From Punctularia strigosozonata HHB-11173 SS5 (lineage: Eukaryota > Basidiomycota > Agaricomycetes > Corticiales > Punctulariaceae), in the NCBI RefSeq assembly GCF_000264995.1, contig NW_006767445.1, positions 327,255 to 376,202 of the forward strand: a stretch of DNA of 48,948 nucleotides, in the 5' to 3' direction. A program made the position numbers and the translations under genes. The notes below the pieces were generated by a model, which was not told the DNA's origin, searched no databases, and saw only the letters and a program-made list of their open reading frames with translations. Positions 4,001-44,547 of the stretch are shown piece by piece (within the stretch, counting starts at the first letter, position 1; every line of letters starts with the position of its first letter).

Positions 4001-5072
4001 ACGTTTCAGATGCGATCATCAACCACGACCATCATTCACAACGGTAAAGAATCGCAATCATCATTATGAATCGCTGTGCTGATTGTCTCTTTAGCATACC
4101 GCGTGGATTTCAACGTGTCGCTCTCCTCGTTCGAGCCTCAATTGCTCATCGTCCGACGCTTCATCAACTTTGCTCTTTCATCCCCTCGCTCCGTGCCCCC
4201 CTCAATCCTGTTCACGAGCAGCGTTTCCGTCCTTCGAAGTAAGCACTTAATCTGCCTTGCCTGCAGTATTCAAAACTGATTTATCCCTAGACCTGGAGTT
4301 GCCGGAGCCAGCCAAAGAGGATGTTGTGGAAGATCCCTTGGTCGCGGTCGGCAATGGTTACAGCGAATCGAAGTGGGCCTCCGAGCGAATCCTCGGGAAC
4401 GCATCCGCCGCTGTGCCATCTCTGCGCACCATCGTGATTCGCGTCGGCCAAATGAGCGGAGGAGCGACCGGTGATTGGAACGCTGCGGAATGGCTCCCCT
4501 CGTTAGTTGCATCAGGGCCCGTCGTCAAGTGCTTGCCCGACCTGAAATCGGCAAGTAGTCATCGCTTCAACGCTTGAGGATGAGGATAAGCGCTAACTGA
4601 TTTGCAGGTCGTTGCATGGATACCGCTTGACGCAGCCGCCAAGGCCATGCTCGACTTCTCCCTCGCCGATGCGCAAACCGTCCCGCCCGTCCTGCACCTC
4701 GCACATCCGCACCCTGCTCCCTGGTCCCAGATTATCGGTCACGCCGCCAAGCGTCTAGGCGTCCCGCTCGTATCTTACGCCGATTGGGTTCAGGCGCTCG
4801 AGGCGGACCTCAAATCCGCGTCAAAGTCGGAGGTGGAGCACATGCGCGAGAATCCTGCACTGCGGCTCCTACCGTTCTTCCAGACCGTAGGGAAGAGCCC
4901 GCTCATCAGCGAGGACCACCCTGGATTCGAGGCAATGGCGATTACGCTTATGGATATGGAGAAGGCAAAATCGGTGTCACCCCTTCTCAGGACTTTACCA
5001 TCGCTCGGGCCCGAGGATGTCGATCGCTGGCTCGCGTACTGGAGCCGGGTTGGTCTATTGCCCGCCCAGTGA
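1066..5072 (+). CDS. adenylate-forming reductase (NRPS-like, A-T-R)
   Basis: Multi-exon gene for a cytosolic enzyme that activates a carboxylic acid as an adenylate, loads it on a phosphopantetheine arm and reduces it off with NAD(P)H. The N-terminal adenylation domain shows SSGSTAFPKP after removal of an intron at about 1746-1799, and YGSSESG near 2430-2450. The carrier domain has the attachment serine in CDSLQATW, split by an intron near 3378-3430. The C-terminal reductase has the nucleotide loop TGTTGGLG (about 3715) and the short-chain-dehydrogenase pair GYSESK (about 4355). The start ATG was chosen because it opens the first exon reading directly into the adenylation domain; the stop follows VGLLPAQ. 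All three domains look complete. Fungal relatives reduce aryl acids, aminoadipate-like acids or amino acids; the substrate cannot be read here. The convergent MFS gene lies about 630 bases downstream. Confidence 0.88.
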
Positions 5073-21512: not shown

Positions 21513-22315
21513 TAACTCCTGGTGGCTCAGTCGTTGGGTTGAGAGTCAGAGTCAGAGGCGAGCGCAGGCTGCAAGCGCCCTGGAATCATTAAGCACATGA
21601 CTTCGTAACTGTAACTAGAGGAAGCCCGCCATTCCACCTTCGCGGAGTCTACATCTATGTACATTGGCGCCTATTCCTTTATATTCAATACCAGCGGTAC
21701 CTAATGACAATCTCAACAGGGTCGGCCGGGAACGTGCGCTCGCTTGCGGTCAAAATTTGTGCAGGGCGCCGCTGCCAAATTCGAGTGTCGTTCAAGTAGC
21801 GGTCGGCTTGATTCGTGAAATTTCGGAGCTGGTCGTTCCGTCCCGGACCAGGCGGGTGCATTTGTGGATCAAAGAGCTCCTTGAGGCACGCATAGAGCGG
21901 GCGAGCCAAGCCCAGGTTCGTGCGGTACGGACCGTTGTCACAGGCCACCGCCTCCAGCGCGGGCATCATGGTGCTGCAACCGCGACCAGACCAGTACCGC
22001 TCGAGGGCGTCGTCCGGGAAGAGTGTGGTCACGAAGCCCATGTGGAACGTCGCCGAGCAATCTGTCATGACCAAGCGCTGGACGTTGGGAGAGTGGGACA
22101 GGAAAGTTTGTACCACATCCAACCGTGCGTGGATGCCAGACAGGCTGAGGTATCGAACAGAGGAGAGCGATATGTAACGACCAGAAGCGTGCGCATCGTT
22201 GCTGACACTCGCATTCACTAGGTGCATAAGGAGAGGTGTTGAATCCACTTCGATCCCGTTGTCGGGGTCAGGAGACCGGATGGCGCAGAGTCGAAGGTCC
22301 TTCATAGCAGGCGCG
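21513..22315. repeat. left copy of an 803-base duplication flanking the N gap
   Basis: Same sequence as 22539-23341, offset by 1026 bases, as judged from the identical translations and matching ends. It contains a truncated copy (21685-22305, minus) of the F-box/LRR-like gene at 22711-23692. It stops at the first N, at a point that continues uninterrupted in the right copy. This is what overlapping contig ends look like when scaffolded without merging. Confidence 0.9.
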
Positions 22316-22538: not shown

Positions 22539-23341
22539 TAACTCCTGGTGGCTCAGTCGTTGGGTTGAGAGTCAGAGTCAGAGGCGAGCGCAGGCTGCAA
22601 GCGCCCTGGAATCATTAAGCACATGACTTCGTAACTGTAACTAGAGGAAGCCCGCCATTCCACCTTCGCGGAGTCTACATCTATGTACATTGGCGCCTAT
22701 TCCTTTATATTCAATACCAGCGGTACCTAATGACAATCTCAACAGGGTCGGCCGGGAACGTGCGCTCGCTTGCGGTCAAAATTTGTGCAGGGCGCCGCTG
22801 CCAAATTCGAGTGTCGTTCAAGTAGCGGTCGGCTTGATTCGTGAAATTTCGGAGCTGGTCGTTCCGTCCCGGACCAGGCGGGTGCATTTGTGGATCAAAG
22901 AGCTCCTTGAGGCACGCATAGAGCGGGCGAGCCAAGCCCAGGTTCGTGCGGTACGGACCGTTGTCACAGGCCACCGCCTCCAGCGCGGGCATCATGGTGC
23001 TGCAACCGCGACCAGACCAGTACCGCTCGAGGGCGTCGTCCGGGAAGAGTGTGGTCACGAAGCCCATGTGGAACGTCGCCGAGCAATCTGTCATGACCAA
23101 GCGCTGGACGTTGGGAGAGTGGGACAGGAAAGTTTGTACCACATCCAACCGTGCGTGGATGCCAGACAGGCTGAGGTATCGAACAGAGGAGAGCGATATG
23201 TAACGACCAGAAGCGTGCGCATCGTTGCTGACACTCGCATTCACTAGGTGCATAAGGAGAGGTGTTGAATCCACTTCGATCCCGTTGTCGGGGTCAGGAG
23301 ACCGGATGGCGCAGAGTCGAAGGTCCTTCATAGCAGGCGCG
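22539..23341. repeat. right copy of the 803-base duplication
   Basis: Begins directly after the gap with taactcctggtggctcagtc, the same bases as at 21513. It extends into the complete 5' part of the F-box/LRR-like gene, so this is the copy to trust. Confidence 0.9.
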
Positions 23342-26608: not shown

Positions 26609-26972
26609 TTAGGCGGAGCTACTAGTCGGGACCGGAGCGGACTGGGTGTAGGTGACGAACTCCGTCGTCTGCGTCAAGTAGGGTGCGTGTGTCATGGCAG
26701 TGTTCCTGACGCGCGCCATACTGCGATGAACGTCAATTCTGATCGGCGAACAGAAGATTCACGGCGCATAAGTAGAAGACACGTACGTGAACGTGCGGGG
26801 AGTCTGATTAGCGGCGTCAGTGGTGATGGTCGTGTCTGCCTGCGGGTTCTGAAAAGAGTGGAAGCGTTGTCAAACGGACTGAAGCTATGAACGCGGCGGT
26901 AAGGAGACGAACGGGAACCGCGAAGGCAACGACGGCAGAGGACAAGAGGGCCAGAGAAACCTCGAACTGCAT
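26609..26972 (-). CDS. small secreted protein, copy 1 (77 aa)
   Basis: Three exons (26913-26972, 26787-26848, 26609-26720) with donors gttcgt and gtacgt and acceptors ttcag and cgcag. The product has a signal peptide (MQFEVSLALLSSAVVAFAVP; cleavage likely near AFA-VP). The mature part of about 59 residues begins NPQADTTITT and ends SAPVPTSSSA. It has no cysteine, is rich in Thr, Ser, Ala and Pro, and contains the segment HAPYLTQTTE. It resembles no family I know. Exon lengths (60, 62 and 112 nt) and intron phases equal those of the copy at 40345-40702, and 55 of 77 residues are the same. The mature part is the better conserved, which argues that both copies are real genes under selection. The role is unknown. 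A TATA-like box lies about 100 bases upstream. Confidence 0.85.
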
Positions 26973-27690
26973 GCTCTGCAACGAGGATAGTATAAGTAGT
27001 AGCGAACGTCGGTAAGATCTCTGGTCTTGAGGGGGGAGAACTGGGTGGAATGTGAGCGTGTACAGGTTTTTATGGACCCACTTCCAAGCCTGTGTGCCTT
27101 TGCACGGCAGCCGGACGAGAATTGCGCATCCGCGCGACGTGCGCTCAAACTCGCGCCAAAGCTCGGTAGTGATGACGTTTCACCAGGGGCAAGGCTCTGC
27201 GACAACGGGGTTGGCCTGAGGAGGGCCAAAAAGCCGCCTCACCGAAGTCGGCCGGTCGGCGCGACATACGAAGGGCCCGCCGCGCTGATGTCCAACAACG
27301 AAAGATTTCATGATCTAACGTTCTAAGGACGCGAACCATCGTCGTCCCCGCAACGTTACATATCGACCTCTTCCTGGGCTCAGACACGGTGGATGGCGAG
27401 CAGCAAAGTTGCGCGACAAATAAAACCCCGTCAATTCTTTCGCGAGAAATTGGAGAGCTGCTTGTTGGCTGCCCGAGCGTAAGTACGAGACCTGTCTCGT
27501 CGGTCAGAAGCAAGAGGTGGCAGGAGCTCGGAGATCGCATCGTGTGAAAGCTGCGCAAAGCGTTCACGTGGGCGTCGCGCGAATCCTCCCTTCTCTGTGT
27601 TTCACACCAACGGGTTCATTGGTCCTTCAACTGCCTCGCTGTCGACTGGCCTCCTCACAGACACTAGCCTTGACTCCCGAAATATATTGG
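26973..27690. repeat. upstream block of duplicated segment, copy 1
   Basis: Contains patches similar to 40703-41890. Examples are the TATA region (gagcgtgtac...), a tgcctttgcacggcagcc block at about 27092, the gggccaaaaagccgcctc block at about 27219 and the gcctcctcacagacactagcc block at about 27650. The order is the same in both, so the duplication of the small secreted protein gene carried more than 700 bases of upstream DNA. Confidence 0.65.
27068..27074 (-). promoter_or_regulatory. TATA-like box of small secreted protein, copy 1
   Basis: Minus-strand CATAAAA, about 96-102 bases upstream of the ATG. The aligned position in copy 2 has TATAAAG. Confidence 0.5.
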
Positions 27691-27844
27691 TCTCCCGCTA
27701 TATCGGCATTGCACTGAGCCACGCAATCTCATTCCATAAGTACACAGAACATACACCACTTGCATTCGATTAGAAATCCAAGGGGAGTAAAAGACGAGTC
27801 CAATCCATTCGATTCCTTCGCAAAAGTATACCCGGTCAAGATCA

Positions 27845-28888
27845 TCAGATCGGGTTGCCGCTGGCGTCAATCGTCATGGGCGGAATACTGATACTGTCGA
27901 CCTTCCAGGTAATGCCACCATCGGGAGTGTATAGATCCGTGGCAACCACTCCGGCGCCCATTCCAAGCGTTTTGGGGAAGGTGTAGTCGGATGCAGAGAG
28001 TACGATACTCGTGTTCAGGTAGTACTGTGATAGCACGATCAACGTCTGCGCACGAAGCCAAGGACACTGGTTGAGAGCATACCTGGGTGCTCCGGGCGCC
28101 GGTGCACTTTTCTTGGCATTCGGTGCCGGTTCCCCATCCTCCCTGGATCAATGGACCATCGTCTAGCATCAATGCTTGTAAGTTTTCAAATCAAGCGAAG
28201 TGTATAACCATCTCTTACAGCTCACTTGGGTCGATGTCACTGTGCCGTTGATAGTCACGGTTTGGTCCCATGTGATCTTGTCGCTACGCAGCTGCGTACC
28301 CACAAAGTTAGCATTCGTGCAAACGTAGACTAACGACACCGAAACATACCTTGTAATGAATGTGAATCTGATCAGTGGGCTCTACGGGGACATAGGGCCC
28401 TGACCACTGGCTCAAGACGCCGTTGATGTATCTGAGAGCGAGTCAGCCCACCTGCTTGCTGCGAGACACTAGGGAGAACTTACCCAAAGTAGCTCGCCGC
28501 GGAACACCACTGGTTGTTTCGCGCGCCGCAGCTGAATACGAGAATCGTGAAATCGGTATACCCAAGATTGCTGACGTGTACCTACTAAGCTTGCATATTC
28601 TTCGCAGAGTCAGCTCCGGCTTGGATGAGGCCACTGGTGGCGTTGCTGATGCCAGGCCAAAGAAACAGGTAGCTGTGGAAGAGTACGAACATTGCATTTG
28701 CGATCAAGGGCGATCAAAACTTACTCCTCATTATCCGGAGGGGGAGTTCCAGGGATCAGAACTGTGCTCGCTTCGATTATGGACGAAGTCTTGGCGGTGG
28801 GCCCGAGAGAATAGGCAGCTCCCCATGTGTCTGCTTTGACGACAGTCGCCAGTATACCGGAGACGACGAATGCGAGGAGCACCTGCAT
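27845..28888 (-). CDS. secreted protein of unknown function, beta-rich
   Basis: Intron-rich gene. Exon 1 gives a signal peptide (MQVLLAFVVSGILATVVKA) and the mature start DTWGAAYSLGP. After a gtaagt intron comes YLFLWPGISNATSGLIQAG, then exons with NNQWCSAASYFG, INGVLSQWSGPYVP, TVTINGTVTSTQVS and PLIQGGWGTGTECQEKC. The last exon ends ISIPPMTIDASGNPI before the stop at 27845-27847. The Trp-, Gly- and Asn-rich pattern suggests an extracellular beta-sandwich of the concanavalin-A-like kind, as in some fungal wall or polysaccharide-binding proteins, but I cannot name the family. Potential N-glycosylation sites (NAT, NGT) and cysteines fit secretion. A TATATAAG box lies 71 bases upstream. Confidence 0.75.
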
Positions 28889-30629
28889 AATGTACTTGAT
28901 GATTCACGTTATGAATAGGACGAGAAACCTGTCTTGCTACGGACGCCGCTCGTCGATGCTTATATACTTGCTGGACGAGTATACGCTACCGTCATAGGTA
29001 GCGGGTGCATGCGGTAGCGCGTGGTTCGGTTTTGCCGATACCTGGACAGAAGTTGGTACTTTTGATCGGCGTCAATAGTCAGGCGGGCTCACGAAAGCGC
29101 TCGCTTGGGGGCGGCGACGCTCGCAGGATTATCTAAGGTTATTTATAGCAAGACGTTGGCGTTAGTATATACTCATTCGTCTTCGGAAAAGCATCATAAC
29201 GTACTGGGCTGCAACAACATTATGTGAGTTGTAGCCCCCTTGGCGCTAATAAACATCGCAAGGGTCGCCACATCTAATCCAGAATATTATCAGCAATCTC
29301 AGAATCAACAGGCTCAGAGCGACCCATTACTCCCGAAGCTCGAGCATTTCGGCTCCCGGAGCGCCGGGGTCCGACGGCCCATTTCGAAGCAACCAGACAT
29401 CACGTCATCAGGCCCCCAACGACTTGCGTGAAGCCTATCGCCTTCAGAGATGCGACTATAAAGTTGTGAAGGAAGCTTGGGTGGTCAACCTTTAGAACCT
29501 CAAGATGACCTCCCATAACGAGGGGCCACATGATCACCGGGGTTTTGCTGGCGAAGGCCGAGCGGAGCGACATGTGTGAGCTGGTGTTCTCGACAACGAG
29601 TCCGTACTTGATCCGCAAGGGTAAACTGATCATCGACGAGTGCAAAGACACCGCGCCATAACTGGTGGGAACGCTCAGCCCATGCGATATCTTGTTCCGT
29701 ACCGCGTGGCCACCGGTCGTCCTTGATGGCATCCCGAGTCTCGTTGCAAGGAATTGGTGCACCGTTATGAAGCCAACCGTTCGGGGCATGGACAGATGAG
29801 GGAAGATGTCATATACAGAAAGTCAGTATCCGACGCAGAAGGGCGAATTGTATACGGTCGAAGTCGAATCTCGGGCAACCAGTAAGATCGACACACTGAC
29901 CGAGAAGCATCCTCCGTCCTGCGAATATAGCGGCCTGACCTGCGAGGAGTAGGTAACAATGCTCTGGTTACGTCGCGATCGATCCATTCTGCGTCTTCTT
30001 CGGTCCAATGTCTCGGTGGCTGTCTGAGGCTCTGCCTCAGCGTACCAAGTCGTGCTCGACCAAGTAGAAACATTGTGTTCCTCGCGCATGTTATAGTGCA
30101 TGTTATAGACAGCGTGCCGTTACGGATGAGTTCGGCGTAAGTCGTCGTTGCGGTCAAATTGCGCCGTTTTAAATTTTGCATGCAGGATCTGACGTCGACA
30201 TCAATGATTTCACCTGACATAACCTTCTCACGGTAAGTTCGATCAGTTGCGGCCCATTGATATGCCTTTGATGCACCCTGTTTCGCTCAAAGATCATCCT
30301 GCTTACCCCCACATGGATGCCGAATGTCTCAGCTAGTCGCTCTTTCCTCCCCCCCGCCGTTCAGTTGTTGCATCCTGAAGCTCGCAAAGTTCTGCCAAAC
30401 CATCGGCCGAGTTCCACTCTACACATGGCGATATCCCAACATACACCAACACACCATCGACCCGCTTTGAATCCGCCGAGCTCTTGGTGTGCGCGCCCCG
30501 CGATGCACGGCGAGCGCGAGGCGTGGACGTGTTCTCTCCACCTCGGTCACCCGAAGCCGGTCGACCCTGGGTCTCGGTTGGGGAACACAGCCGATTACGT
30601 CGCCGCGCACTTCCGCCGCACCTCTCGTT
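28889..30629. other. intergenic, about 1.7 kb, no confident gene
   Basis: Minus-strand frames of 129 and 151 codons (29400-29789 and 29765-30220) read partly like protein (for example FASKTPVIMWPLVMGG) but share no motif I recognise and could not be spliced into one model. They may be a decayed gene. Both flanks should hold promoters of the divergent secreted-protein genes. Confidence 0.35.
28959..28966 (-). promoter_or_regulatory. TATA box of the secreted beta-rich protein gene
   Basis: Minus-strand TATATAAG, 71 bases upstream of the ATG at 28888. Confidence 0.55.
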
Positions 30630-30635
30630 TATAAG
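30630..30635 (+). promoter_or_regulatory. TATA box of the cysteine-containing secreted protein gene
   Basis: TATAAG about 54 bases upstream of the ATG at 30684. Confidence 0.5.
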
Positions 30636-30683
30636 AGTGATCGCAGCTCGTTGACCTCTTGGCGAAAGCTTCCCCGCGTCAAC

Positions 30684-31515
30684 ATGCTCAGCGTTGTCCG
30701 CATCGTCGCTTTCTGCGTTATCCTCGTCGCGTCCATCAATGGCCTCCCCACCGGTGCGCGTCCGCGCGCCGGCGGATATCCCATCATTCCGGGCGACAAC
30801 GGGTCGTGTGCGAAGATGGGTCAACTGTGCGCCAGCAATATTGGTGATAACTACAACTCGATAGTTGCCGAAGGTGCGTAGTTCCGAGTTATGACCCCAG
30901 GTTTCAAGTCCTTAGTCGGAGTGCAGGAGGAGAGTTCGGAGTGTCAAGTCACTGTTTATTGAGCTCCATGTGCCAGCAAATGTTCTACAACGGCACCGTC
31001 GACGACTGGATCCAAACGTACTTCGGATTCCGCAGTGATGACAGTACGGCATCTGGAAGCTACAGCAGGAAGGCCGCGAAGTTACCCGAGAACGTGAGTT
31101 CGGCCAACCATGCTTCATGGCTTATCCCAGATTGAGCGATATGGGTCTAGCTTTATGCTGCGCTGTTATCTTCGGACGAAACAACAGCTACGCAACAGTC
31201 CTTCATCGATGCTTACAACTCCACCCTGGCCGCAGCAGGCGGTCCCTACCCAGCGTAAGCTCTTCGACTGGCGTACCCTCTCGTTTCACCTACTCATACC
31301 TGGCCAACCTCATCAGCGTCTCTTACGTCTCCGAGATTTGGACTCGTATCTCTGCATGGACCGTCTCCTGCTCATCCTTCGAGGTCTCGTACGACTCACT
31401 CGCAGATTGGGTACGTAAACAATTCGTAGTTTGATATGAGCATACTTATGCAGTCACTGACACCGGCTAATAGTTGCAATTGTCTTCGACCGAACCTGGC
31501 TCAACCACTTGCTGA
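30684..31515 (+). CDS. small secreted cysteine-containing protein (182 aa)
   Basis: Five exons: 30684-30873, 30927-31093, 31199-31254, 31317-31410 and 31474-31515. All join in frame with GT-AG sites. The product has a signal peptide (MLSVVRIVAFCVILVASING), then PTGARPRAGGYPIIPGDNG and a domain with paired cysteines (GSCAKMGQLCAS, SSHCLLSSMCQQMF, TVSCSS), ending in STTC at the stop. Six cysteines lie outside the signal peptide. YNGT and YNST are potential N-glycosylation sites, and two tryptophan-containing segments (VDDWIQTYFGF, SEIWTRISAW) look structural. I do not recognise the family. It may be a wall or apoplastic protein; no catalytic motif is visible. Nearby genes are also secreted, suggesting an extracellular-function cluster rather than an operon. 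Confidence 0.78.
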
Positions 31516-33024
31516 AAGTGCCCCGGTGCTCACGAAAATATAAACGTTCCTATCAGACAGAACATTACTAGTGATGGACTATCAGATACGGTCGCAGACA
31601 CTGAACGACGGCCATTTTACCATAAGAATACTCATACTTCAGCTACTGAGAGATAGTCATCGATCCTGGCCGGACGGCAGGATCCACAACGCCTTGTTAC
31701 AACCTCGAAGTAATGCTAATAACGAAACTTCTCTGCGTCGTGTCCTTGTACGTTAACATCCCCTTCGCCACGTCCTCGGCATTTCCCTCAAGCTCAGTTA
31801 GACAAGCCCCCCGGATGCGTTTTGCTGATAAACGCCAAGTGTTTGAGGTTATTCGAGAATCTCGATAGTCGTTATTCTCTATACCTGAGCTCAAGGACGC
31901 CGCGGTCAGTGGTCACCAAGCGTGGCGAGCGTTCTGCCGGGAAAAGCCGGGCAGCTCTCTTTTCTCTCCATCGACGGCGCTCGCGTTGCGTGCACAAGTC
32001 GCGTTTTCTGCTTGTTTTCTGCACCAAGGAGAGATGGTTACACACTCCGCTGAATACGAACTTTGCTCTCCGTCATCCTCTCGAGCACTAATCTCCCCGC
32101 CCAGTACTCATCAATCTACTTGCTCAGAGATGACTGGTGGACTTCACATTGCAAATGATCACTTATGGGTCACGAATGCCGACACCGCAGGTCAGCAGAC
32201 CACCAACGCACCCACGGATGACCTTCTCGACCCCGCGCCTCCGCAGGGCCATCCCCACAAACCTATATAACGCAGCAGGCCCATCTCCGTCTCCATTCAT
32301 CCTCCTCATGCAGGCGCTCCTCGTCAGCAGGTACGCGGGGGGCACGTATACGAGGCGGAGACGGAGTTCGGGGGCGTCTTGTTCGCGCGCCGTGCAGTGA
32401 TGTTCGCAGCTTTTTTCTACGAAAAGCGTGCGCTGCGTCGCAGATTGACTGTTCCACATCCATACTGCACAATGCTACATATGTCGGTCGACGACCTAAG
32501 GAGGGAAACGAGTGCAACAAGACGCAGCATGGCCATTACGCAATCTCCTCGAACCCAGATTCCACGCACATGGCGCGCCCCGCGTTGTCCCGCACTAACG
32601 CAGGGTCGTGCGCTCTTATAAAAGGAGCCCGACCCGGCGCTCGCACGATCCCCTCAACATCCTCCCAGCCAAGGTACGTCCACTCCTGAACCAGTGGGAC
32701 GCAGGGCGAGTCATAAACTGGGACAGACCGAGCGAAGGGACGCTTCGCAGACGCTGAGATCAATCGATCAACATATATGTGGTCACTCGGTGGATCGCTT
32801 GTCGCTGCGTTCGTCGTACATGACTCATGTGTGCCCCCTCGTGCGCTAGCGCTGTGATCAATCTGCATATGCGTGTACGTGCCCCTGCGAAGTAACTTTA
32901 TTCATCGCGCGACCGCGGTCCCATGCGCCGCCCGCTTCAGTTCACAAGATATACTCATGTCGGTTTGATGTTCACCCCCTCGCTCCTCCGATCTCCTGCT
33001 CGAACATCAGACGCACTGCTTACG
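31516..33024. other. intergenic, 1.5 kb, promoter of the DUF6593 gene
   Basis: 31516-32580 has only short overlapping frames. The 3' part carries a clear TATA box (32617-32623) and then a pyrimidine-rich start region, with a gccaag|gtacgt junction that could be the donor of a 5'-untranslated intron of the DUF6593 gene. Confidence 0.4.
32617..32623 (+). promoter_or_regulatory. TATA box, probable promoter of the DUF6593 gene
   Basis: TATAAAA followed by a G+C- and C-rich leader. It is about 400 bases before the ATG, which requires a 5'-UTR intron; a gtacgt donor lies about 55 bases downstream. Confidence 0.45.
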
Positions 33025-33951
33025 ATGGTCTACAACGAGGCTGCAATGGACTCCCAGGTGACGCTGGGTGTCTTCGGCACATCCGCCATCACCCTCGTCG
33101 ACCCGCCGGCGCAGGGCGACGTCGTGCTCATCTTCGCGCCGGACAACATGCGCAACTCGGGGGTGCACCGCGTCGGGTCCCCGAACGAGCGCTTGTACAC
33201 CGTGCAGTCGAATCAAGACCTGACAGTGACCGAGCTGCGGGATGCGCACGGGCTCGTCGCGAAGATCGAGTATCGGACGATGCTGCCTGATCAAGTGTCG
33301 TTGCGAAGTCGCGGGTTTAAGCCCATACGGATGAGCAGCTGGTTGAAAGAAGTCGGCTCGAAGTCGTAGTACGTGCCCGCTCGTCCGTTCAATCTGCAGC
33401 ATGTTACATGATCAAAACAGCGTCGTGTTCGAGGCGAAGGGGGCGAAGTATCTCTGGAAGACGAGTCGCACGGGGCAGGTTAATGTAAGTGATCATGAAG
33501 CAACTTCGAATTCGAAGGGGAGACGCCTTACGGCGATCCGCCGAGCTGATCCTACCTGCTTCCGCTAATCCCTTCTTCCCTATGAATTTACTAGTGCTAC
33601 GGCGAGACGCCCGGAAGTTTGCAACCGATTGCGTGGTACGACTCGACGCGGTCAGGGCCACGCCAGCGCGCTCTCCAACCGACCGAAGCAGAAGCAGGCT
33701 GCGGCCACCTCCATCTGACGAACGCTGCTTCCCATGTCCAGTGAGCCTCCACGAACCTTATCACTGCTATGATATTTTCGCCCGAACATCGGTCCCCGTA
33801 CGATTGTCGTGCTGACGCTTTATGCTGAGTTGATGATGCATGTAGGGACGATCTGGTTGCTTCGCTGCTGGTGGTGCAAATGCGGGCGTGGCTGAAGCAG
33901 GACCGATGGGCCAAAGTCGGGACGGGATACGGATATAGCACGAGCATGTGA
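33025..33951 (+). CDS. DUF6593-type protein (219 aa)
   Basis: Four exons: 33025-33368, 33421-33484, 33595-33740 and 33846-33951. The protein has the pattern of mushroom-specific DUF6593 proteins: an N-terminal beta-rich part (SAITLVDPPAQGDVVLIFAP), an IEY segment after a charged turn (LVAKIEYRT), a WLK segment, FEAKGAKYLWKTSRTGQ, and a C-terminal helix (DDLVASLLVVQMRAWLKQ) ending YGYSTSM. These proteins are probably intracellular and have no known function; no signal peptide is seen. ATGs at 33025 and 33046 are both in frame, and I use the first. The frame is open further upstream but that part reads as non-protein. Confidence 0.78.
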
Positions 33952-35496
33952 ACGCATTTCGAGAGGTCTTCTCCTTCTTCAAATTGAGACTGATCTTGGT
34001 ACGTGTACCAGATTCATGGCTTGACGGTCGATTTCGACCGTAATACTCGTCCAGGGTCCTTCCTTCGATCTTCATTGAAGCTCCACTCCAAACGATTGCG
34101 ATGTTTCGCGGTAACATCACTACTACCCACGCAAGTTATAAACGTTACAGCCGGCGATTTTGCTACGAAGCTTAATCCGGCGTCGCTGCGTAGACGTTGC
34201 GTCACTTGACCCTCTCACATGGGAGTTTAGAAGTAGGAAGACGACCCGCTGCAATATAAAAGGGCGGCTGAAACGCCCGGTTCCCCCCACATTCGTCCCG
34301 TGTCAAGCAGGTGCGCTGCGTCCCGTCTCCGGACGTCACGGCAGCGCATCTTTATACGGAAGGGGCAGAACGAGCTAGACATACATTCACCCGCGAGAGA
34401 ACCGCTTTTCTCCAAGCCTCGTGGTGTACAATTGTTCTAACATAGGCGTTCCGGGACGGCATGGTTGCGGTTTTGTAACGGATGACTTGCGTGCTCGTTT
34501 CGTGAACGGATCGACGGTGGTGCTGTATGTGGTCCGACGTATGCATTAAGGTGAAAGACACTCCTGGCCGTGAGATCCCCGGCCAAACTGTCGGGCTCTG
34601 TGGGTACACAAGGTCGGATGGGCCAATGGCTCCGGAGTGAAGGTGCCTAGATCATCATAAATCAGACTTCTGAGTTTAGCCGCGGCGGCTCGCTGCCGTC
34701 GCGTATAAAACCTACAACTTTCTCTCGGCCGCCTCTCGCCATCCCGGCCAAGGGACGTCCCGTCCTCTACACCTTAACGGACGGAACGTGAGTTATCAAA
34801 CGTACCAGGAGAGAGCGTATTCGACGTGCTTGATTGTCCCTGCGGCGGATCGCATAGCCGTAGGGCGTTTCTGCACGGCCGTACATTCTGCGTTGGCGCA
34901 CCACTCACTCTGTGCGGGCTGGGCGCAGGTGACTCGATCTCGGTGGAAGATGAACAGCAACGGCGGTTCTAAATTACAGTAGCACCGCCCTCCGTGTATC
35001 TGATAGAGTACGCTTGCGGATGTTGTATAGAAAATTGCTGGCGGCCAATGTTCAGGTTGGGCTCGGAGCGGCTGGCGAATAACCAGGGTAACGAGATCTC
35101 GCAGCAGCGCGGGGGTGATGAAAACTGGTGTAAAATATTCTGCTGCAAGTTGGAAGCTCCTGTAGCGCCACAACGATGAAGTCGTCGTCTGATCATGATC
35201 GTGTTTCAGGCCAAGGAAACGGAAGGGACGGGAGGAAGGGAGATCGACCTTGCGGCTTGATCGGAGGAAGACTTCCCACGGTCAAAATGGACGGTGGCAA
35301 AAGCGTTTCTCCCGCCGCGTTTTGCCTCCGTCAGATTTCCGCTCCCCTTCGCCCCGCGCCATCCCGGCTATCAGCCCGTCCTTCTAGACCCAAGTCCCCA
35401 TTCGGTCCGCCGCCGTCGTGTTATATTAATGCCTGGCTCGCGCCGTCCTCGTTGCTGCAACCCCTCCTCTCCTTCCTCCACGTCCTCTTCCGAATC
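33952..35496. other. intergenic, 1.5 kb with two promoter-like modules
   Basis: No coding region could be supported. TATAAAA boxes at 34255-34261 and 34704-34710 are each followed by a C-rich leader, and the second by atcccggccaagggacgtcc, close to the leader of the DUF6593 gene promoter (32650-32690). They may be promoters of lost duplicates or of noncoding transcripts. The final 100 bases are the promoter of the DUF6533 gene. Confidence 0.4.
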
Positions 35497-37564
35497 ATGA
35501 GCGCGGCCGAGATCAAGGAGCTCGAGCATATTGTGTCCGTTGCGCAGGCGAGTGATCGGACGCCTACGTGCACGGTCTCCTGTGGCTCACGCGCGATGCG
35601 CTATTGCAGACATACGTAGCATGTGAGATTATCCTCCAGCTTGCCAAATTCAATGCGGGACTGAAGAGGGGCCGCTGCGCGTACAGGCACGACTAGCATC
35701 TTGGTCTGGGACTGGTTGGCGTGTCTACCGCAGGAGGTGCGCCGTCGTCTCATCGAGCCATCGGCCTGCCCGCTCAGCGCCGACTTCTCCGCATATATGC
35801 AGTACCGATACATCTGGAAATCGAGATGGACGCCCATAAAATGCCTGTACCTGATGGTGCGCTACTACACGTTCGTGGTGCTGGTCGGTGAGTGCATCGC
35901 TGGAGGTCGCGAACATGCCGTTGGGCTGACTTGCGCCACCAGTGACGGACGTCTGTGAGTCGCCCATCCGAGAACACCGCATACCATTAGGCTGAACTCA
36001 GTGTCCGCTTTCGTAACGAAGGGTTCTTCGCGAGCTGGAGCGAAGCGTGCGTGTTCCATTCACGATTCATTGGGGAGAGACAGTGCCGTGTCATCTAACT
36101 TCCCATGTCTCGCAGAGACTGCGCGCGGGACCTGCGCATATTACCGGGTATGGCCGTCCTCATCGACTTTTGCGTCGAACTTGGTGAGCGACTTGCCGGT
36201 TATTCTTGTTCTCAATTATGGGTCTGGCTAAAAATGGTACCCGCCTTGCCGTAAACCGCAAACAGTGCTCGCGCTTCGGTAAGCTACATACTCCCGTTCC
36301 CGTTGGGCTCAACGCTCTCCACACCCGCGCTCATCTCTCGCATCGTGTTTGCAGGGTCTTTGCGCTCTACGACCACGACAAGCGTATCGCCGCGCTTCTC
36401 GGCACCCTCCTCGCCGCCTTCCTCGGGGTCATGATAGCGGTCCCCATCCTCGCCTTCGACTGTGAGTGTTCTTCGAGATCCGGCCCAGATAGGGTTCACG
36501 ATGAATGCCGGGGCTCACGGCAACTCGGCTTGTCCCGCAGACACGAGGCTACCGTCATGGCCGGGTCCATGTTTAGGTGCGAGCTTGCCCTTTGTGCTAA
36601 TGTGGTCAGACGCTTACCCCGTTCGTCGCTGGTTAGTAACGGGAAAGGCGTCGATAGCCGGCCCCAAGTTCATCATTGCGTTTTACGCCGCGCCCATGTG
36701 AGTCCTCATCTCAATATATCCTTCTGGGGACGACTGGGTTTCGACCTAAGACAATTGCATGGCTGACGGGCGTGTACATTACCGTTCAGGGCGTTCGACT
36801 TCACCGTCACGGCCCTCACTCTTTATCGCGCGTTTTTCCACGTCAGCCTCAAGCACACTAGTTCATCGCTCATCAAAACCTTCATCCGCGACGGTGTATT
36901 CTACTTCCTTGCTATATCCACGCTCAATCTGTGAGTGGCATGGATCAAACTTCCACGGCCGATGATTGACGAGCCTCCATGCTACTTGTAGCATCAATGT
37001 CATCTTCTTCGTGTCCGTGCCGATTCGTCGTCAGCCGTGTGTGTTTGCATTAAGCCCGTCGTTCCTCACAGCCAAAGAAACAAATCCATACAATCCCTCA
37101 ACGCGCCCATGAGCATCCAACTCTCCACGGTCCTCTCATGTCGTCTGTAAGCCCCGCGCTCTCATTCTCATACTCACCCTTTCCTCATCCACTCACGGTG
37201 ACTATCGTCGTCCTCCCGCAGCATCCTCAACCTCCGCGCTACGCGCGACCGCCATCCGTCCGTCAAAAAGTTCAGCAGCACCCTCCAAAAATGGGTCGAC
37301 GACTTCCACATCACGCAGCCGTCGGATACGATGGCGTCGGGCATGACGCTCGCGAGCCCGATCCGCCGCCACGCGCGCGGCCCCGTCTTCGCGCGCGACC
37401 CGATCGAGACCGAGACCGCGGGCGTGATGGTGCGCTTCGAGGACGAGCTCGACCCGCCCGAGGCCGACTCGGAGCGCGGCTCGCACAGGCGAAACTCGAA
37501 AGACCGCGTGTGGGACGGGTCGACGGATACGACCGCCGGCTACGCTACGCCCGACGCGAAGTGA
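35497..37564 (+). CDS. DUF6533 multi-pass membrane protein
   Basis: Intron-rich gene for an integral membrane protein of a family abundant in Agaricomycetes. The DUF6533 core is built from small exons: MSAAEIKELEHIVSVAQ (35497-35547), a 13-nt exon (35610-35622) giving TYVA, ILVWDWLACLPQE (35687-35736) and YIWKSRWTPIKCLYLMVRYY (35803-35887). Then come VVLVVTDVC, an exon with ARDLRILPGMAVLIDFCVEL, a second 13-nt exon (36266-36278) giving VLALR, and FALYDHDKRIAALLGTLLAA. Later segments include PFVLMWSDAYPV, IIAFYAAPM, FDFTVTALTLYRAFFHVSL and the last helices, then a hydrophilic C-terminal tail with TTAGYATPDAK before the stop. About seven transmembrane helices are expected, suggesting a receptor-like topology, but the ligand or role is unknown. 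Intron 1 appears to be of the GC-AG type. Confidence 0.8.
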
Positions 37565-38138
37565 AGTGAAACTCGGACTGTCAGCTTGCCCCTCCGCCAA
37601 CCGACCGACCGACCTGCCGCACCCTCCACTGACTACGTCGACCGACCGCCCGCTCTGACATATCATCTAACGCAATCTCTTCCTGGATCAACTTCAACCC
37701 ATCAATCGCAATCCCCGCCGTTCGTAAGCTGTAGAAATCGATTCTTGTTCAGTTTTGGCTTACCGTCTGCGCTGTATATACTACTCACTACACTCTGGCA
37801 CTTGTACTGGATCTCTTCTTTTTAGTAGTACTAATCCTGCTCGCTCGTTCCCTCGTCATTATAACCTTTGTCGCAATGCTATCGGTTATGCTTTCGTTGG
37901 CGCTGTCGCTCTCGTAGCTCGCTGCACTATGTATGTACACGCTGTTGAGCGCTTGCAGCCTCTTGCAGCCACCGGCGTCGGGAATTGCCGTGTTTGTCTC
38001 GACTTTCGCGCTCGCCGCATCTTCTCGAGTGGCTCAAGCCCGAAGAGCGACATAACCACTTGGCTTGACCCTGCGCAACCCTTGTATCAGGACAAGGGAG
38101 GGGTAGACCGTCATCTCGGCCCTTGCTCGCCTTGCCGG
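37565..38138. other. intergenic, 0.57 kb
   Basis: Spacer between the DUF6533 gene and the protoporphyrinogen oxidase gene, both on the plus strand, holding the terminator of the first and promoter of the second. T-rich runs occur at 37730-37860. No gene seen. Confidence 0.5.
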
Positions 38139-40033
38139 ATGCCACCGAGCCACATCGCTGTACTTGGAGGCGGGATCTCAGGCTTATCCGCCGCGCATCA
38201 CCTCGCGCGGCGCTATCCGACAACGCTCATCACTCTCCTCGAGAAGGTCAGTATCGTACGAGGCTCGTGCCCAAATGCATCGCAGCTGATTGCGTCTTAG
38301 CCAGGACTCCCGACTTGGAGGATGGATACGCAGCGAGCGAATGCGAGTCAGCGACGGGGCGGGTAACAGCGCCAGCGTGTTGCTGGAGGTGGGGCCGAGG
38401 CATCTGAAAGCGCCGACGAGGTCGCGCTTGCATTCGGCGTACGTGCTGGAATTGGTATGTTCACCATCGCTCGGCGTCGGGAGGACGGCGTGTTGACGAA
38501 GTGTTACAGGTGAACCAGCTCGGCATAGAAGACGGCATCGTGAAAGGACCCATGCCCGGTGCTCCTGATGCCATGCAACTCGTGTCCATGCCCGCCGTCA
38601 ACGCCAACCCCTCAACCCCCGCCGAACTGATGCTGCTCCCCGACCGCTGGTCGGATCTGGACCCTTGGGAGCATCCGAGCCACCGACTCCTGATGCGCGC
38701 CGCCTTTTCCAACGTCGCCAACGGGACCCGACACCATAATTACGACCTCGGTAATCTTTCCAAGGCCGGCCGCTGGTTGAAGGGGCGCTCCGCGTCCCTC
38801 CTTGATGAAAACGTGCAACAATACCTCGAGAAGCGGTTCAAGAACCCGGTCGTGGCCGATATTCTCGGCACTGCGGTCGTGCACGGCGCCCTGGCCGCCG
38901 ACGCGCGCTTCCTCAGCGTGGCGATCGCCTTCCCCGACGTGTATCGCTTAGAGCGCCTCGGCGTCGGGAGCGTCGTGCGCGGGCTGATACACGAGCGCTC
39001 TTTCCAATATCTATTTGGATCCCGATATTCGAAGAAGCATATACCGGGCGAGCTGGCGCGGCATGGGCTCGATACCGGGGATTTACCTGAAAGGTTACAG
39101 GACACGGCCGTCTTCTCCTTCAAGCAAGGCCTCGCGACGTTGACAGATGCGTTGGAGCACGCGTTGCTCAGATGCGAGAACGTCCGTCTACTGAAAGGCG
39201 CCGCTGTGGATCACATCAAGGGTCACGGCCGGGGCGAATTCCTCGTACGTTTCTGTGCACCGTAATGGATGGGATGCAGAACCGACCTCTGACCCAACAT
39301 TTTGCCCTCTTATCAGATCGGCATAACGCCGGACAAGAAGCGGAAGCAGCCTTTCCCGCGAATGGACTCGCCTCCCGTCTCCCATCTCATCTCCACCGTC
39401 CCGATCCCCACCCTCGAGCGCCTATTCCAGAACGGGGACCGCAACCCGAACGACGGCAAGATATTCTTCCCATGGACCCAGCCCGGCTCGAATCACTTCC
39501 CTTACGCCTCCGTCGTCGTCGTCAACCTCGTCTTCCCGCCCTCCGACACGCCCCTCCACCCGCCCGGCCTCGGCTTCCTCGTACCCCGCCCGGCCAACGG
39601 CTACGACTCGCTCCCGAACCGGGGTATCCTCTCCGTCTCCTTCGACTCGCGCAACGTCGGGCCCGCGCAGGACTACGCGCTCGGCGAGAAGACGCGCGGC
39701 GAGGTGGGCTCGTCCCGGTTCACGAAGATGAGCGTCATGCTCGGCGGGCCGTTCCCGCTCACGCCCGCGCTCGTCGACCCGCCGACGGTCGTGCGGAACG
39801 TGTCGACGTACCTCGGCCGCGACCTGCCCAAGCCCGTGCTGTCGCGCGTGCACATCCTCCCGAGGTGCTTCCCGGCGTACACGCTTGGCCACAGCACGAA
39901 GGTGCAGCATGTACAGAAGGTGGCGCGCCCGGCGAAAGTGGCGGTCGTCGGCGCGGGCGTTGCGGGTGCGGACGTGGACACCTGCGTTGCGGTGGCAAGG
40001 GCCGCTGCACTTGGTAAATGGCTAGACGAGTGA
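38139..40033 (+). CDS. HEM14: protoporphyrinogen oxidase
   Basis: FAD enzyme of the inner mitochondrial membrane that oxidises protoporphyrinogen IX to protoporphyrin IX, the penultimate step of haem synthesis. The first exon gives the dinucleotide-binding GGGISGLSAAHHLARRYP and the second DSRLGGWIRSERM, as in the family. Further conserved parts are LLEVGPRHLKA, a long middle exon (VNQLGIEDGIVKGPMPG; GTAVVHGALAADARFLSV; GSRYSKKHIPGEL; VFSFKQGLATLTDALE), and after a 79-nt intron the C-terminal exon with ISTVPIPTLERLF and SVMLGGPFPL. The C terminus runs through KVAVVGAGVAGADVDTCVA to the stop. Introns were placed at EK|DSR, LEL|VNQ and EFL|IGI. The gene appears complete, with the start at the first ATG preceding the FAD motif. 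Haem from this pathway would serve P450s such as the one at 11429-13879. Confidence 0.9.
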
Positions 40034-40344
40034 TATGTATATCGCACGCTATGCTCCCGATGTGACATACTGCACTTCGCATTTTTTGTTGTTATGATGA
40101 CGTGCTCGACGATGTTCTTCCTCGCACATCGTCTGTCGACCGATTCGAACAGATCAGGAAAGAACGTCTGCGCAATTCAACGAGCCTCAAGGACGGAATA
40201 TGGTAATCATCTCAAACAGTATCACCACCGCTTGCGCGGCCCCAACGAAGGTCCCATTCAAAAATAAAAAGTTCGCGAACATAAATAAAGCCCTTCTCGC
40301 ATCGACACCCTGCTGACCCTTCGTCACGGTATCCGACGACGCGC
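40034..40344. other. intergenic, 0.3 kb
   Basis: 3' spacer between convergent genes (protoporphyrinogen oxidase and small secreted protein copy 2). No gene seen. Confidence 0.5.
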
Positions 40345-40702
40345 CTAAGCGGACGTGCTGGTTGGGATCGGCGCGGACTGAGTGTAGGTGATGATCTCCG
40401 TCGTCTGCGTCAGGTAGGGCGCGTGTTGAAGGACGGTGTTCCTGACGCGCGTCATGCTGGTATAAAACACCGAGTTAGTCTGGCGAACGTTTGATGCGTG
40501 GTGTGAGGCGGTAGACGTACGTGAACGTGCGGAGGGTCTCGAGGGCGGTGTTGGTGGTGATAGTCGTATCTGCCTGCGGGTTCTAAGAGGGGGGAGAGCG
40601 TTATGAAGTCGACCGAAGACGAAGCATGGCGTCGAGACGAACGGGGACGGCAAACGCAACGGCGGCGGAGGCCAAGATGATTGAGGCGATCTTGAGCTGC
40701 AT
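40345..40702 (-). CDS. small secreted protein, copy 2 (77 aa)
   Basis: Three exons (40643-40702, the 62-nt middle exon, and 40345-40456), phase-matched to copy 1 at 26609-26972. The signal peptide is MQLKIASIILASAAVAFAVP. The mature part starts NPQADTTITT, includes HAPYLTQTTE and TYTQSAP, and ends PTSTSA. It has no cysteine. Differences from copy 1 lie mainly in the signal peptide and the middle of exon 2, and most are conservative elsewhere. Introns are diverged in sequence but use the same donors (gttcgt, gtacgt), which supports real splicing. No known family is recognised. A TATAAAG box lies about 100 bases upstream, and a MITE-like element lies 530 bases upstream. The laccase gene follows 1.7 kb away in the opposite orientation. 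Confidence 0.85.
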
Positions 40703-40798
40703 GCTCGGCAAGGTCGATATGGATGTGGTAAGGCGAACGATGGGAAGATCTCTGCTTTCGGGGGCGAGAACTGGGCGGAAGTTCGAGCGTGTACAAGT

Positions 40799-40805
40799 CT
40801 TTATA
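40799..40805 (-). promoter_or_regulatory. TATA box of small secreted protein, copy 2
   Basis: Minus-strand TATAAAG, about 97-103 bases upstream of the ATG at 40702. The equivalent position in copy 1 is CATAAAA. Confidence 0.55.
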
Positions 40806-41233
40806 CAGGCGGACCCCCTTCTTTCGGTATTTGTGCTCTAATCGTTGAGAGCGACTTCGCGTTCCTTGGTCTCGCCTTTTGCGCGTGCTGAGCGACCCTG
40901 TGCGCCTTTGCACGGCAGCCGAAGGAGATCGCTCAAGCGCTCACCGAAGTTCGGGTCTGATGGTGTTTCAGAAGGAGATCGGGTACGAATATGAACTGCG
41001 GCGACATGATCGTCGTAGGACGGGCCAAGAAGCGCCTTACCAAAGTGGGTTTCCCGGCCCGACGCACGGAGGAGGCCGCCGCGCTGATGCGCGACGACGA
41101 CCTTGTCCTGAAGGAGCGAGGATGACTTGAGCGCCTGAGAATTTGGCCCGTCGGCATGATATGAAAGGTTACGAACCCCTGGTAAGCGCCAGCAAACCGC
41201 TGATATGAAGGTGATCCGCAGAGCGGACGCACA

Positions 41234-41356
41234 CATCAGGAAAAATCGGATTTGCTAAAAGCCTCCTAAAATGTACTAAAATGTGCTCATTTAGTAGTTT
41301 TAGAGGGTTTCGGTACCCAATAAGCGACTCTTTCGATAGTCCGATTTTTCCTGATG
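41234..41356. mobile_element. MITE-like element with 17-bp terminal inverted repeats
   Basis: 123 bp flanked by perfect 17-bp inverted termini: catcaggaaaaatcgga at 41234-41250 and its complement at 41340-41356. The interior is A+T-rich and itself imperfectly palindromic (ctcctaaaatgtactaaaatg against ctctaaaactactaaatg). No open frame and no convincing target-site duplication. The paralogous block near 27.3 kb lacks it, consistent with insertion after the duplication. Confidence 0.6.
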
Positions 41357-42287
41357 CAGATCTCGGATCAGGGTTACTGACAGAACCTGTCAGAAACCCG
41401 GATCGCGGAGCAGGAACTACAAAGTCAGGTTGAATCGCCGAGACGATGACCGCATACTTTATCGGCCGCCGGCTGGCCAGGTCGTCGTTGTCTCCGCAAA
41501 CATCAATCGACCTCTTCCCCGGACGCGCTGGACGCCGAGTCCTGTGCTTTAGTTCGGATTGCAACGGTGCCGCAGCTTCCTGCGGCGGATACAGCCCTGT
41601 CGATCCTTCCGCGCACAAACCAAAGCTGGTCCATGGCTGCATGAGCAGGATAAGATAATCAAAGACGCAAAGCTGTTACGCGTCTCTCCCGATTGATGCG
41701 GTTTGCTGTCAGGTGGAGCGAAGGTAAGTCCGCGCATCGCATCGTGCGAAAGACTGCGCAAATCGCTTCTTTCTTGTGCGTTCTCACGTTTCCTACCTCT
41801 CCCTTGAAGTCTGCACCGACGGATTGATCGGACCGTCAATTACCTCACTCCGTTCAGGGGCCTCCTCAGGCACTAGCCCAGGCCACCGAGCGATATGCGC
41901 GTCTTCGGATCACCGTCCATTGTCGTCGGCACGTCGCACTAACGCGACCCAAGCCATGCCCGTCATGCGTCCGTGTGAACGCATATGGGGCTCATGAAGA
42001 TCGGAAAGCCGAGGAAACGATTATCGCACCAGGATCGCATTCGTCACTGCAGTGGCATTGTATCTGCGGGCCGCCGTAGGGAAGCCATTGCCCTCTTCCC
42101 GCCTCCGAAGCCTTGCGAACGTCGCAACCTGCTTCTCACGTCGCGGCGGCCCCGGGTACGCGAGTCGGACCGCAGCCTGACGCCCGAGCGACTCGACGGC
42201 AAGTGCGTGATGACCCTGCGACGTTCAGGAATTGCAAAGTCCGGCGCTGCTGTTCCTATGCTGATGCCTGCAGAGATCGCCTCCAGG

Positions 42288-42294
42288 TATAAAG
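42288..42294 (+). promoter_or_regulatory. TATA box of the laccase gene
   Basis: TATAAAG, 77 bases upstream of the laccase ATG. Confidence 0.6.
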
Positions 42295-42364
42295 GGATGC
42301 GAACCGGCAGGAACTTCCAGCAGCGAGAAGTCACTCGGTTCCTCTCCCTCGAAGTTTCTCTAAG

Positions 42365-44547
42365 ATGGTCTCTCGCTTGCAATCCTTGGTCCCTCTCGCT
42401 CTTGCTGCCCGAGGTGTATTTGCCTCGATCGGCCCCGTCACCGACCTCAACATCGTGAGCGCCATCCTTAACCCGGATGGCTCCGTTGAGAGAGGGTAAG
42501 TCAACTCGTCTCGGGAAGACTGAACGATCCATCTGACTTGTAATCCTGCAGTGCTGTTACCGCTGAGGGTGGCGCCGTTGGCCCGCTCATCGTCGGCAAC
42601 AAGGTAATTCGCTACGCAGTCGTTTCCTCTACAATACTCACGCGAAATCGTAGGGCGACAACTTCCAGATCAACGTCGTTAACTCGTTGAGCAACAGCAC
42701 CATGTTGCTGACCACTTCCATCGTGAGTCGTTCACCTACGCTCTAGCTTCGCCATCTGACAGGCTTCACAGCATTGGCACGGCATCTTCCAAGCTGGCAC
42801 AAACTGGGCGGACGGTCCCGAGGGCGTGAACCAGTGCCCCATCGCATCTGGAAATTCGTTCCTCTACAACTTCAACGTCCCCGACCAAGCGGGCACCTTC
42901 TGGTACCACTCCCACGATGGTACGCAGTACTGCGACGGTCTTCGTGGGCCGTTGGTTGTGTATGACCCCAGTGATCCGTACCTGGACGACTACGACGTCG
43001 ATGACGGTCAGCTACTACCACGATCTACTCTCTTCGAGACGTGCTCATTCGTATCCCAATTTCAGAGAGCACGGTCATTACTCTTTCTGACTGGTACCAT
43101 GACGTTGCTCCGACTATCGGTGAGTCTTCATATGAGCCATACGCAGGCCGTTTCTGAACCAGGTTATCTCATAGCTTTCGGGTGAATAACACCTTTCATG
43201 ATTCAATTTCGCTCAGACGCGCTGACATTTGGGACAGTACCTCTGATGCTACTCTCATCAACGGCCTGGGCCGCTTCTTCGACGGCACTAACGTCAACGA
43301 TGCCGACCTCGCGGTCATTAGCGTCGAGCAGGGCAAGCGCTACCGCTTCCGGTGAGATGACTTGGTCTATATACCGGGCTCCTCGGCTCATCACTTTCCT
43401 CGCATAGTTTGATTTCTATCTCTTGCGACCCCAACTTCACGTTCCAGATCGATCAGCACAACTTCACGGTTCGTCTTGCCCTTGTCCCTGCCATACTTGT
43501 CAGCTCATGTTGCTGCTACAGATCATTGAGGTCGACGGTGTCAACCACGAGAAGCTGACGGTTGACTCCCTTGTCATCTTCGCCGGCCAGCGCTACTCGA
43601 TCATCCTCAACGCTGATCAGCCCGTCGACAACTACTGGATCCGCGCTGACCCGAACAACGGTAACACGGGCACTGACTTGGGTCTCAACTCGGCCATCTT
43701 GCGCTACGTCGGAGCTAACGAGACCGAGCCCACCACCACCCAGGATACCAGCGCCAACCCTCTCGTCCAGGGCGATCTCGTGGTAAGCATCCTGCTTGTA
43801 ATTTGTGATCGCTCGAGCTTATCGATCGGCTCAGCCCCTCGAGAATCCCGGTGTGAGCGGCGGCGACGATACCAAGTGCGTTGACTGCGCCGACTACAAC
43901 CTCCACCTCGACTTCACCTTCAATGGCACTTTCTACACCAACGGTTTCAGTGAGCACAGTCGACACCACTGTAGGGTTTCACGGTATTGACCCGCCATTC
44001 ACAGCTTGGACGAGCCCCACCAGCCCGGTTCTCCTCCAGATTCTCAGCGGCGCGACCTCCGCCTCGGACCTCCTCCCTGCCGGCAGCCTCTACGCCCTCC
44101 CCGCCAACAGCTCCATCCAGCTCTCCATGGCCGCCGGCGCCCTCGCTGGAAACCCCCACCCCTTCCACTTGCACGGCCATACCTTCGACGTCGTCCGCGG
44201 CGCCGGCGAGACAACCTATAACTGGGACAACCCCCCGCGTCGCGACGTCGTCTCCCTCGGCGACGACGCGACGGACGGTATCACCAACAACGTCACCGTC
44301 CGCTTCACGACCGACAACGCCGGCCCCTGGTTCCTCCACTGCCACATCGACTGGCATCTGGGCACCGGCCTCGCGATCGTCTTCGTCGAGGACTTCGCCG
44401 ACATTTCCACCACCGAGTCCCCCAGCACCGCCTGGTCGGACCTCTGCCCCACCTACGACAGCCTCACCGCCGACCGTACGTGATCGCTCCTCCGATATCG
44501 CAATGACCTATACTGACAAGCGGACAGAACTCGGTGGCATCAACTAG
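42365..44547 (+). CDS. laccase (multicopper oxidase)
   Basis: Secreted blue copper oxidase that couples one-electron oxidation of phenols to reduction of O2 to water, used in lignin attack, pigment or detoxification. Signal peptide [20 protein letters not shown], then [13 protein letters not shown]. Four copper signatures are present: [15 protein letters not shown] (about 42773), [19 protein letters not shown] (about 42895), [13 protein letters not shown] (about 44160) and [18 protein letters not shown] (about 44325). The residue ten after the copper-1 cysteine is Leu. Splicing restores [51 protein letters not shown] and TWTSPTSPV. The C terminus is DQLGGIN. A 7-nt exon (43175-43181) is needed to keep frame between two introns. 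Second-signature residues after HSH (DGT) differ from the usual LST. The gene looks complete with about ten introns. Confidence 0.95.

Follow-up and report, generated by a model that had tools for sequence, protein, structure and literature searches.

Small cysteine-free, putatively secreted peptides encoded head to head with laccases in Punctularia strigosozonata

Two split genes and a laccase in the window

The window analyzed here is a 48,948-bp stretch of the P. strigosozonata HHB-11173 SS5 genome (contig C13, NW_006767445.1, positions 327255–376202). It contains two short minus-strand genes, each predicted to encode 77 residues in three exons. The first, W26, lies at 26609–26972 (exons 26972–26913, 26848–26787, and 26720–26609), and the second, W40, at 40345–40702 (exons 40702–40643, 40582–40521, and 40456–40345). 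Exons are 60, 62, and 112 nt in both genes; introns are 64 and 66 nt in W26 and 60 and 64 nt in W40. All four introns are GT-AG, in phases 0 and 2, and each translation ends at a single terminal stop; the splicing is predicted from the DNA. The two proteins share 55 of 77 residues and their coding regions 181 of 234 bases. Coordinates, exons, phases, and identity were re-read exactly as a preliminary description of this DNA had given them. The exons align without insertions or deletions and both introns differ in length, and the upstream DNA shows patchy likeness to about −700 in W26 and −1175 in W40.

Both precursors begin with a hydrophobic, signal-like N-terminus (called from the hydrophobic stretch only, without a predictor), in keeping with the proposal that they are of the secretion type, and neither mature part contains a cysteine, as had also been claimed. 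Their C-terminal ends are TSTSA and SSSA. The preliminary description had recognized no family, and we too found no Pfam family with the window peptides (best E-value 0.14) and no relative in a profile search of PDB sequences (a single match, E-value 1.9, to a phage protein; the entry for the solved laccase small subunit was possibly outside the set searched). It had also set aside pheromones and hydrophobins, and the C-terminal CAAX and the cysteine pattern are indeed absent.

Head to head with W40 lies a plus-strand gene at 42365–44547, an approximate model with its start set by homology and its stop by eye. It matches Pfam families PF00394 and PF07731, carries the copper motifs, and matches PDB laccases with E-values down to 2.9e-62. 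Its domains, copper motifs, and nearest solved relatives place it among the laccases sensu stricto. A TATAAA lies upstream of it at 42288–42293. The 1,662 bp between the two ATGs (40703–42364) contain a MITE-like insertion with 26-nt inverted arms (41234–41356). Counting this insertion, the element is found at no fewer than 41 genomic places, and the other copies are 91%–97% identical.

Elsewhere in the window there are pieces of an adenylate-forming reductase (2352–4082; AMP-binding_C_3 and NAD_binding_4), a piece of an MFS transporter (6973–7551), and, beside an F-box-like gene, two 803-bp copies that are 100% identical (21513–22315 and 22539–23341), which are either a very recent tandem duplication or an assembly artefact.

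The codon pattern of W26 and W40 indicates purifying selection. A pairwise codon model gave an omega of 0.20 for the whole coding sequence (likelihood ratio test against 1, p = 7e-6), 0.21 for the mature part (p = 4e-4), and 0.19 for the signal exon (p = 0.035). NG86 estimates are dN 0.17 and dS 0.63, and the differences at codon positions 1, 2, and 3 number 19, 8, and 26. The dN/dS comparison suggested earlier thus bears out the selection that had been proposed. The argument originally offered for it, conservation of the mature part over the introns, is weak, because base identity in the exons (41/60, 50/62, and 90/112) is not clearly above that in the introns (44/58 and 37/63 aligned columns, gaps free).

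A family of at least seven genes

The preliminary description took W26 and W40 for a pair. A search of the genome (33.57 Mb in 32 contigs) shows at least seven such genes, of which the window pair appears to be a divergent branch; the searches covered this one fungal genome, and the family count is a lower bound. The search with W40 gave a weak match (E-value 0.04) at C13:57.4 kb; manual reading showed a gene of two exons there that shares the first intron of W40. The protein of this gene, M57, used as a query, returned four further genes with E-values of 2.1e-14 or better: M98 and M202 on the same contig (C13:98 kb and C13:202 kb), MC3 (C3:1.71 Mb), and MC1 (C1:4.60 Mb). Two more core queries led to these five core genes again, with anything else at no better than 0.04. 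Further weak matches to the core query (L022–L024) had E-values of 0.04–1.3. Two weak matches, L009 and L010, were rejected on a six-frame reading, which found no signal-plus-intron design. The last exon of W26 as a query returned only the window pair. In a scan of prokaryote and viral contigs for the peptide pattern, 24 and 52 stretches matched and none was confirmed as a relative.

All seven genes encode a signal-like hydrophobic N-terminus that is followed at once by a phase-0 intron of 51–68 nt. A second intron is present in the window pair and absent from the other five. M202 (L014, C13 202.7 kb) has a GC-AG intron with donor GCAAGT; the other six have GT. The mature parts are 55–62 aa long (5.7–6.6 kDa), contain no cysteine in any member, and consist to 40%–44% of Thr, Ser, and Pro. 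Conserved aromatics are found as T[WY] in all seven and as HAP[WY] in five, and a single N-glycosylation sequon occurs among the seven mature parts, in W26. Thr at positions i and i+2 is more frequent than in shuffles for four peptides (reached by at most 12 of 1,000) and not for MC1, W40, or W26; a hydrophobic-moment test for beta strands gave no signal in any of the seven.

A TATA-like element lies 88–111 nt before the ATG in 7/7 peptide genes (5/7 by the strict pattern), where about 0.01 per gene would be expected in the 24-nt slot. In W40 it is a TATAAA at −103 (40800–40805, minus strand), and in W26 a CATAAAA at −102 (27068–27074, minus strand), admitted by a pattern widened after looking. 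The seven promoters share 6-mers above chance and 7- and 8-mers at about the chance level. We also observed, post hoc, no CCAAT/ATTGG in the 400 bp before six peptide genes, where shuffles give 3.8.

The window pair is probably related to the core five, if remotely. Neither W26 nor W40 came up in searches with core members at E-values up to 10, and the single search linking W40 to the core is the match at 0.04. Nevertheless, when the two window peptides were locally aligned with the five core peptides, nine of the ten comparisons beat all 5,000 composition-keeping shuffles and the tenth scored above all but one. A profile comparison of the two groups gave a probability of 65 and an E-value of 5.9e-5, from few rows. 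Kinship is also consistent with the shared first intron, TATA-like element, and laccase neighbor. Four core members (MC1 left out) gave omega values of 0–0.13 over 47 codons in six pairs, each with p ≤ 4e-5 by the codon model; synonymous change is saturated in most pairs, so only the direction of these values is reliable.

Pairing of peptide genes with laccases

Peptide genes of this family are paired with laccases. When flanks were compared, a divergently transcribed laccase was found 5′ of six of the seven peptide genes, an informative feature that the preliminary description had missed. With one conserved laccase region as the query, eight places matched strongly and five multicopper-oxidase loci more weakly; a second region recovered all eight of the strong places and four of the weaker five. 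These eight laccases make up six loci on three contigs, and there is a peptide gene at every one of the six. M57 is paired with the laccase at C13:60 kb (2,202 bp from ATG to ATG), M202 with that at C13:200 kb (1,897 bp), W40 with the window laccase at C13:370 kb (1,662 bp), and MC3 with that at C3:1.72 Mb (2,523 bp). Two laccases are present at the locus of M98 (C13:94.9 and 105.9 kb; 2,654 bp) and two at that of MC1 (C1:4.601 and 4.605 Mb; 1,834 bp). Stretches of 9.9 kb at the two tandem-neighbor laccases revealed no separate peptide gene for either, and the five other multicopper-oxidase loci gave no peptide relative (best E-value 0.026 in 9.9 kb). W26 is a second copy within the window laccase locus, 15.4 kb from the laccase ATG, and lacks its own laccase.

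The chance that six of seven peptide genes lie no more than 2.7 kb from the start of a laccase is 3e-17 under independent placing, a value that overstates the case because the copies share descent through joint duplication and the loci are not independent witnesses. Among the neighbors listed, the laccase is the only one found at six of the seven peptide genes, and the next shared neighbor is a P450 gene beside two of them, M98 and M202. These P450-like genes lie downstream, at about C13:99–101 kb and 203.5–205.5 kb, and a similar gene is found 13–15 kb downstream of W26 (about 11.4–13.6 kb in the window).

Within the six head-to-head pairs, peptide identities of 34%–86% accompany laccase identities of 61%–92%, and the two sets of distances are correlated (Mantel r = 0.923, a value reached by the observed arrangement alone among 720 permutations). 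Without the window pair the correlation is 0.925 (2 of 120 permutations); with the tandem laccases swapped in for their head-to-head ones it is 0.780 (17 of 720). By these sequence distances, peptide divergence follows that of the adjoining laccase. Joint inheritance alone would suffice to explain such co-divergence, which is no proof of contact.

Possible roles and known systems

The reading that we hold, on an even balance of confidence, is that these are short secreted peptides accompanying laccases, each a partner of the enzyme outside the cell. The peptide would be secreted when its laccase is produced and would then act together with it extracellularly. Its likeliest role there would be that of a small accessory peptide, binding or stabilizing the laccase; otherwise it may be a Thr-rich substrate oxidized by the enzyme. 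W26 is, on this reading, a duplicate of W40 with no laccase of its own. A single-sequence model of the last exon of W40 (37 residues, the first of which comes from the splice acceptor and not the exon) predicts a beta-hairpin with strands at 2–12 and 15–25 and HAPY at the turn; its mean pLDDT is 79.8, the five models ranging from 57 to 80, and we take it as a lead only. Two of the eight laccases are without their own peptide gene and one of the seven peptide genes is without its own laccase, which speaks against a partnership. So do the remoteness of the window pair, intergenic DNA that is conserved among no members but M57, M98, and MC3, the lack of any clearly enriched regulatory motif, and a passage of PMC10741624 by which a laccase sensu stricto is normally a monomer.

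The peptides could instead be independent small secreted proteins (wall or surface peptides, or signals) produced under the same conditions as laccase, with the linkage serving shared induction or chromatin rather than contact with the enzyme. We consider this possible, if somewhat doubtful. The pairs are divergent and every peptide gene has a TATA-like element of its own, as co-regulation would have it, and there is a parallel in the Pleurotus Ssp proteins, which passages of PMC5674062 and PMC10705924 present as secreted and as affecting ligninolytic enzymes, and which are not known subunits. However, six promoter motifs examined in six pairs included none clearly enriched as common to both sides; on the peptide side MRE-like sites numbered 9 against 5.2 expected (23 of 300 shuffles), and the other five motifs were not enriched. 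An intergenic distance of 1.7–2.7 kb would also seem long for one shared promoter.

It is improbable, in our judgment, that peptide and laccase genes are accidental neighbors that were duplicated jointly and have no functional tie. Peptides and laccases rank alike in similarity, as joint duplication predicts, and the DNA between the two genes is also alike, among M57, M98, and MC3 only. Yet the pair has been retained at laccase identities down to 61%–69% and across three contigs, and the other neighbors, among those listed, are mostly unshared.

The boldest alternative, to which we assign very little probability, is a redox role: the peptide would supply the protein moiety of a small agent outside the cell, which laccase oxidizes or cross-links through the conserved aromatics of the peptide. 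Those aromatics and the laccase address fit such a role, and an iron- and oxygen-reducing extracellular glycopeptide is known from a white-rot fungus, according to a passage of PMC10821177 that cites Tanaka 1999. The lone sequon among seven mature parts argues against it, and a tie to that glycopeptide would be a guess. Finally, chance frames in duplicated DNA, which the near-equal base identity of intron 1 and the exons might suggest, are rejected as next to negligible by the codon pattern and omega of the window pair, and by the intact frames, common first intron, and constant TATA-like position across seven genes.

Laccases oxidize lignin-like compounds and are widely used enzymes. Many laccase genes are maintained in such fungi, for reasons that are still sought. 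If a peptide is inherited with every laccase locus, it would point to an unrecognized component of secreted laccase activity. It would be a bigger step, and one we think unlikely to be right, to conclude that in this fungus the laccases sensu stricto, enzymes regarded as monomers in the normal case, have a dedicated partner of ~57 residues inherited per locus, of a second and separately evolved kind, or a laccase-oxidized mediator or matrix substrate. Should it be true, the tiny split genes would be the reason why such a peptide partner has been overlooked. Unannotated small secreted proteins form a large class in fungi, and for these the family offers a lead drawn from gene context.

Among the matches listed from open-licence literature, none describes a peptide linked to laccases in this way, though such a description may exist elsewhere, and matches to the peptide strings included none that was useful. 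Several known groups of small proteins can be set beside the family. Mating pheromone precursors end in a C-terminal CAAX; this identity is rejected, as none of the seven peptides has a C-terminal cysteine. Hydrophobins, with eight conserved cysteines, and cerato-platanins, also with conserved cysteines, are likewise small secreted fungal proteins, but all seven mature parts here are cysteine-free, so membership in the hydrophobins is rejected. The CFP proteins of Beauveria and Metarhizium share small size, secretion, and lack of cysteine; they are set apart by their description as 120–145 aa long and confined to insect pathogens of the Hypocreales. Ssp1–6 of Pleurotus ostreatus are, like these peptides, multi-copy small secreted proteins, tied to ligninolytic enzymes by knock-down, but a passage of PMC5674062 gives them about 18 kDa, and on size (5.7–6.6 kDa in 7/7 mature parts) we reject membership.

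The POXA3/NLAC small subunits of Pleurotus are likewise small secreted proteins tied to a laccase-type enzyme. The POXA3 small subunits are larger than the mature peptides here (55–62 aa). Their partner is an NLAC, with Arg for a conserved Asp and an axial Leu, whereas the partner here keeps the Asp: it is present (SCDP) in all eight laccases, at what we take to be the position replaced by Arg in NLACs. Of the eight, only the window laccase has Leu as the axial residue; the rest have Phe. With the Asp kept in 8/8 partner laccases, we do not file the peptide in the POXA3/NLAC small-subunit family. In that system, small subunits pair with NLAC laccase-like enzymes (a passage of PMC10741624), and the small subunit of the heterodimeric Pleurotus laccase raises stability and activity (a passage of PMC3129051). 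By analogy, the peptides described here may work in a similar way.
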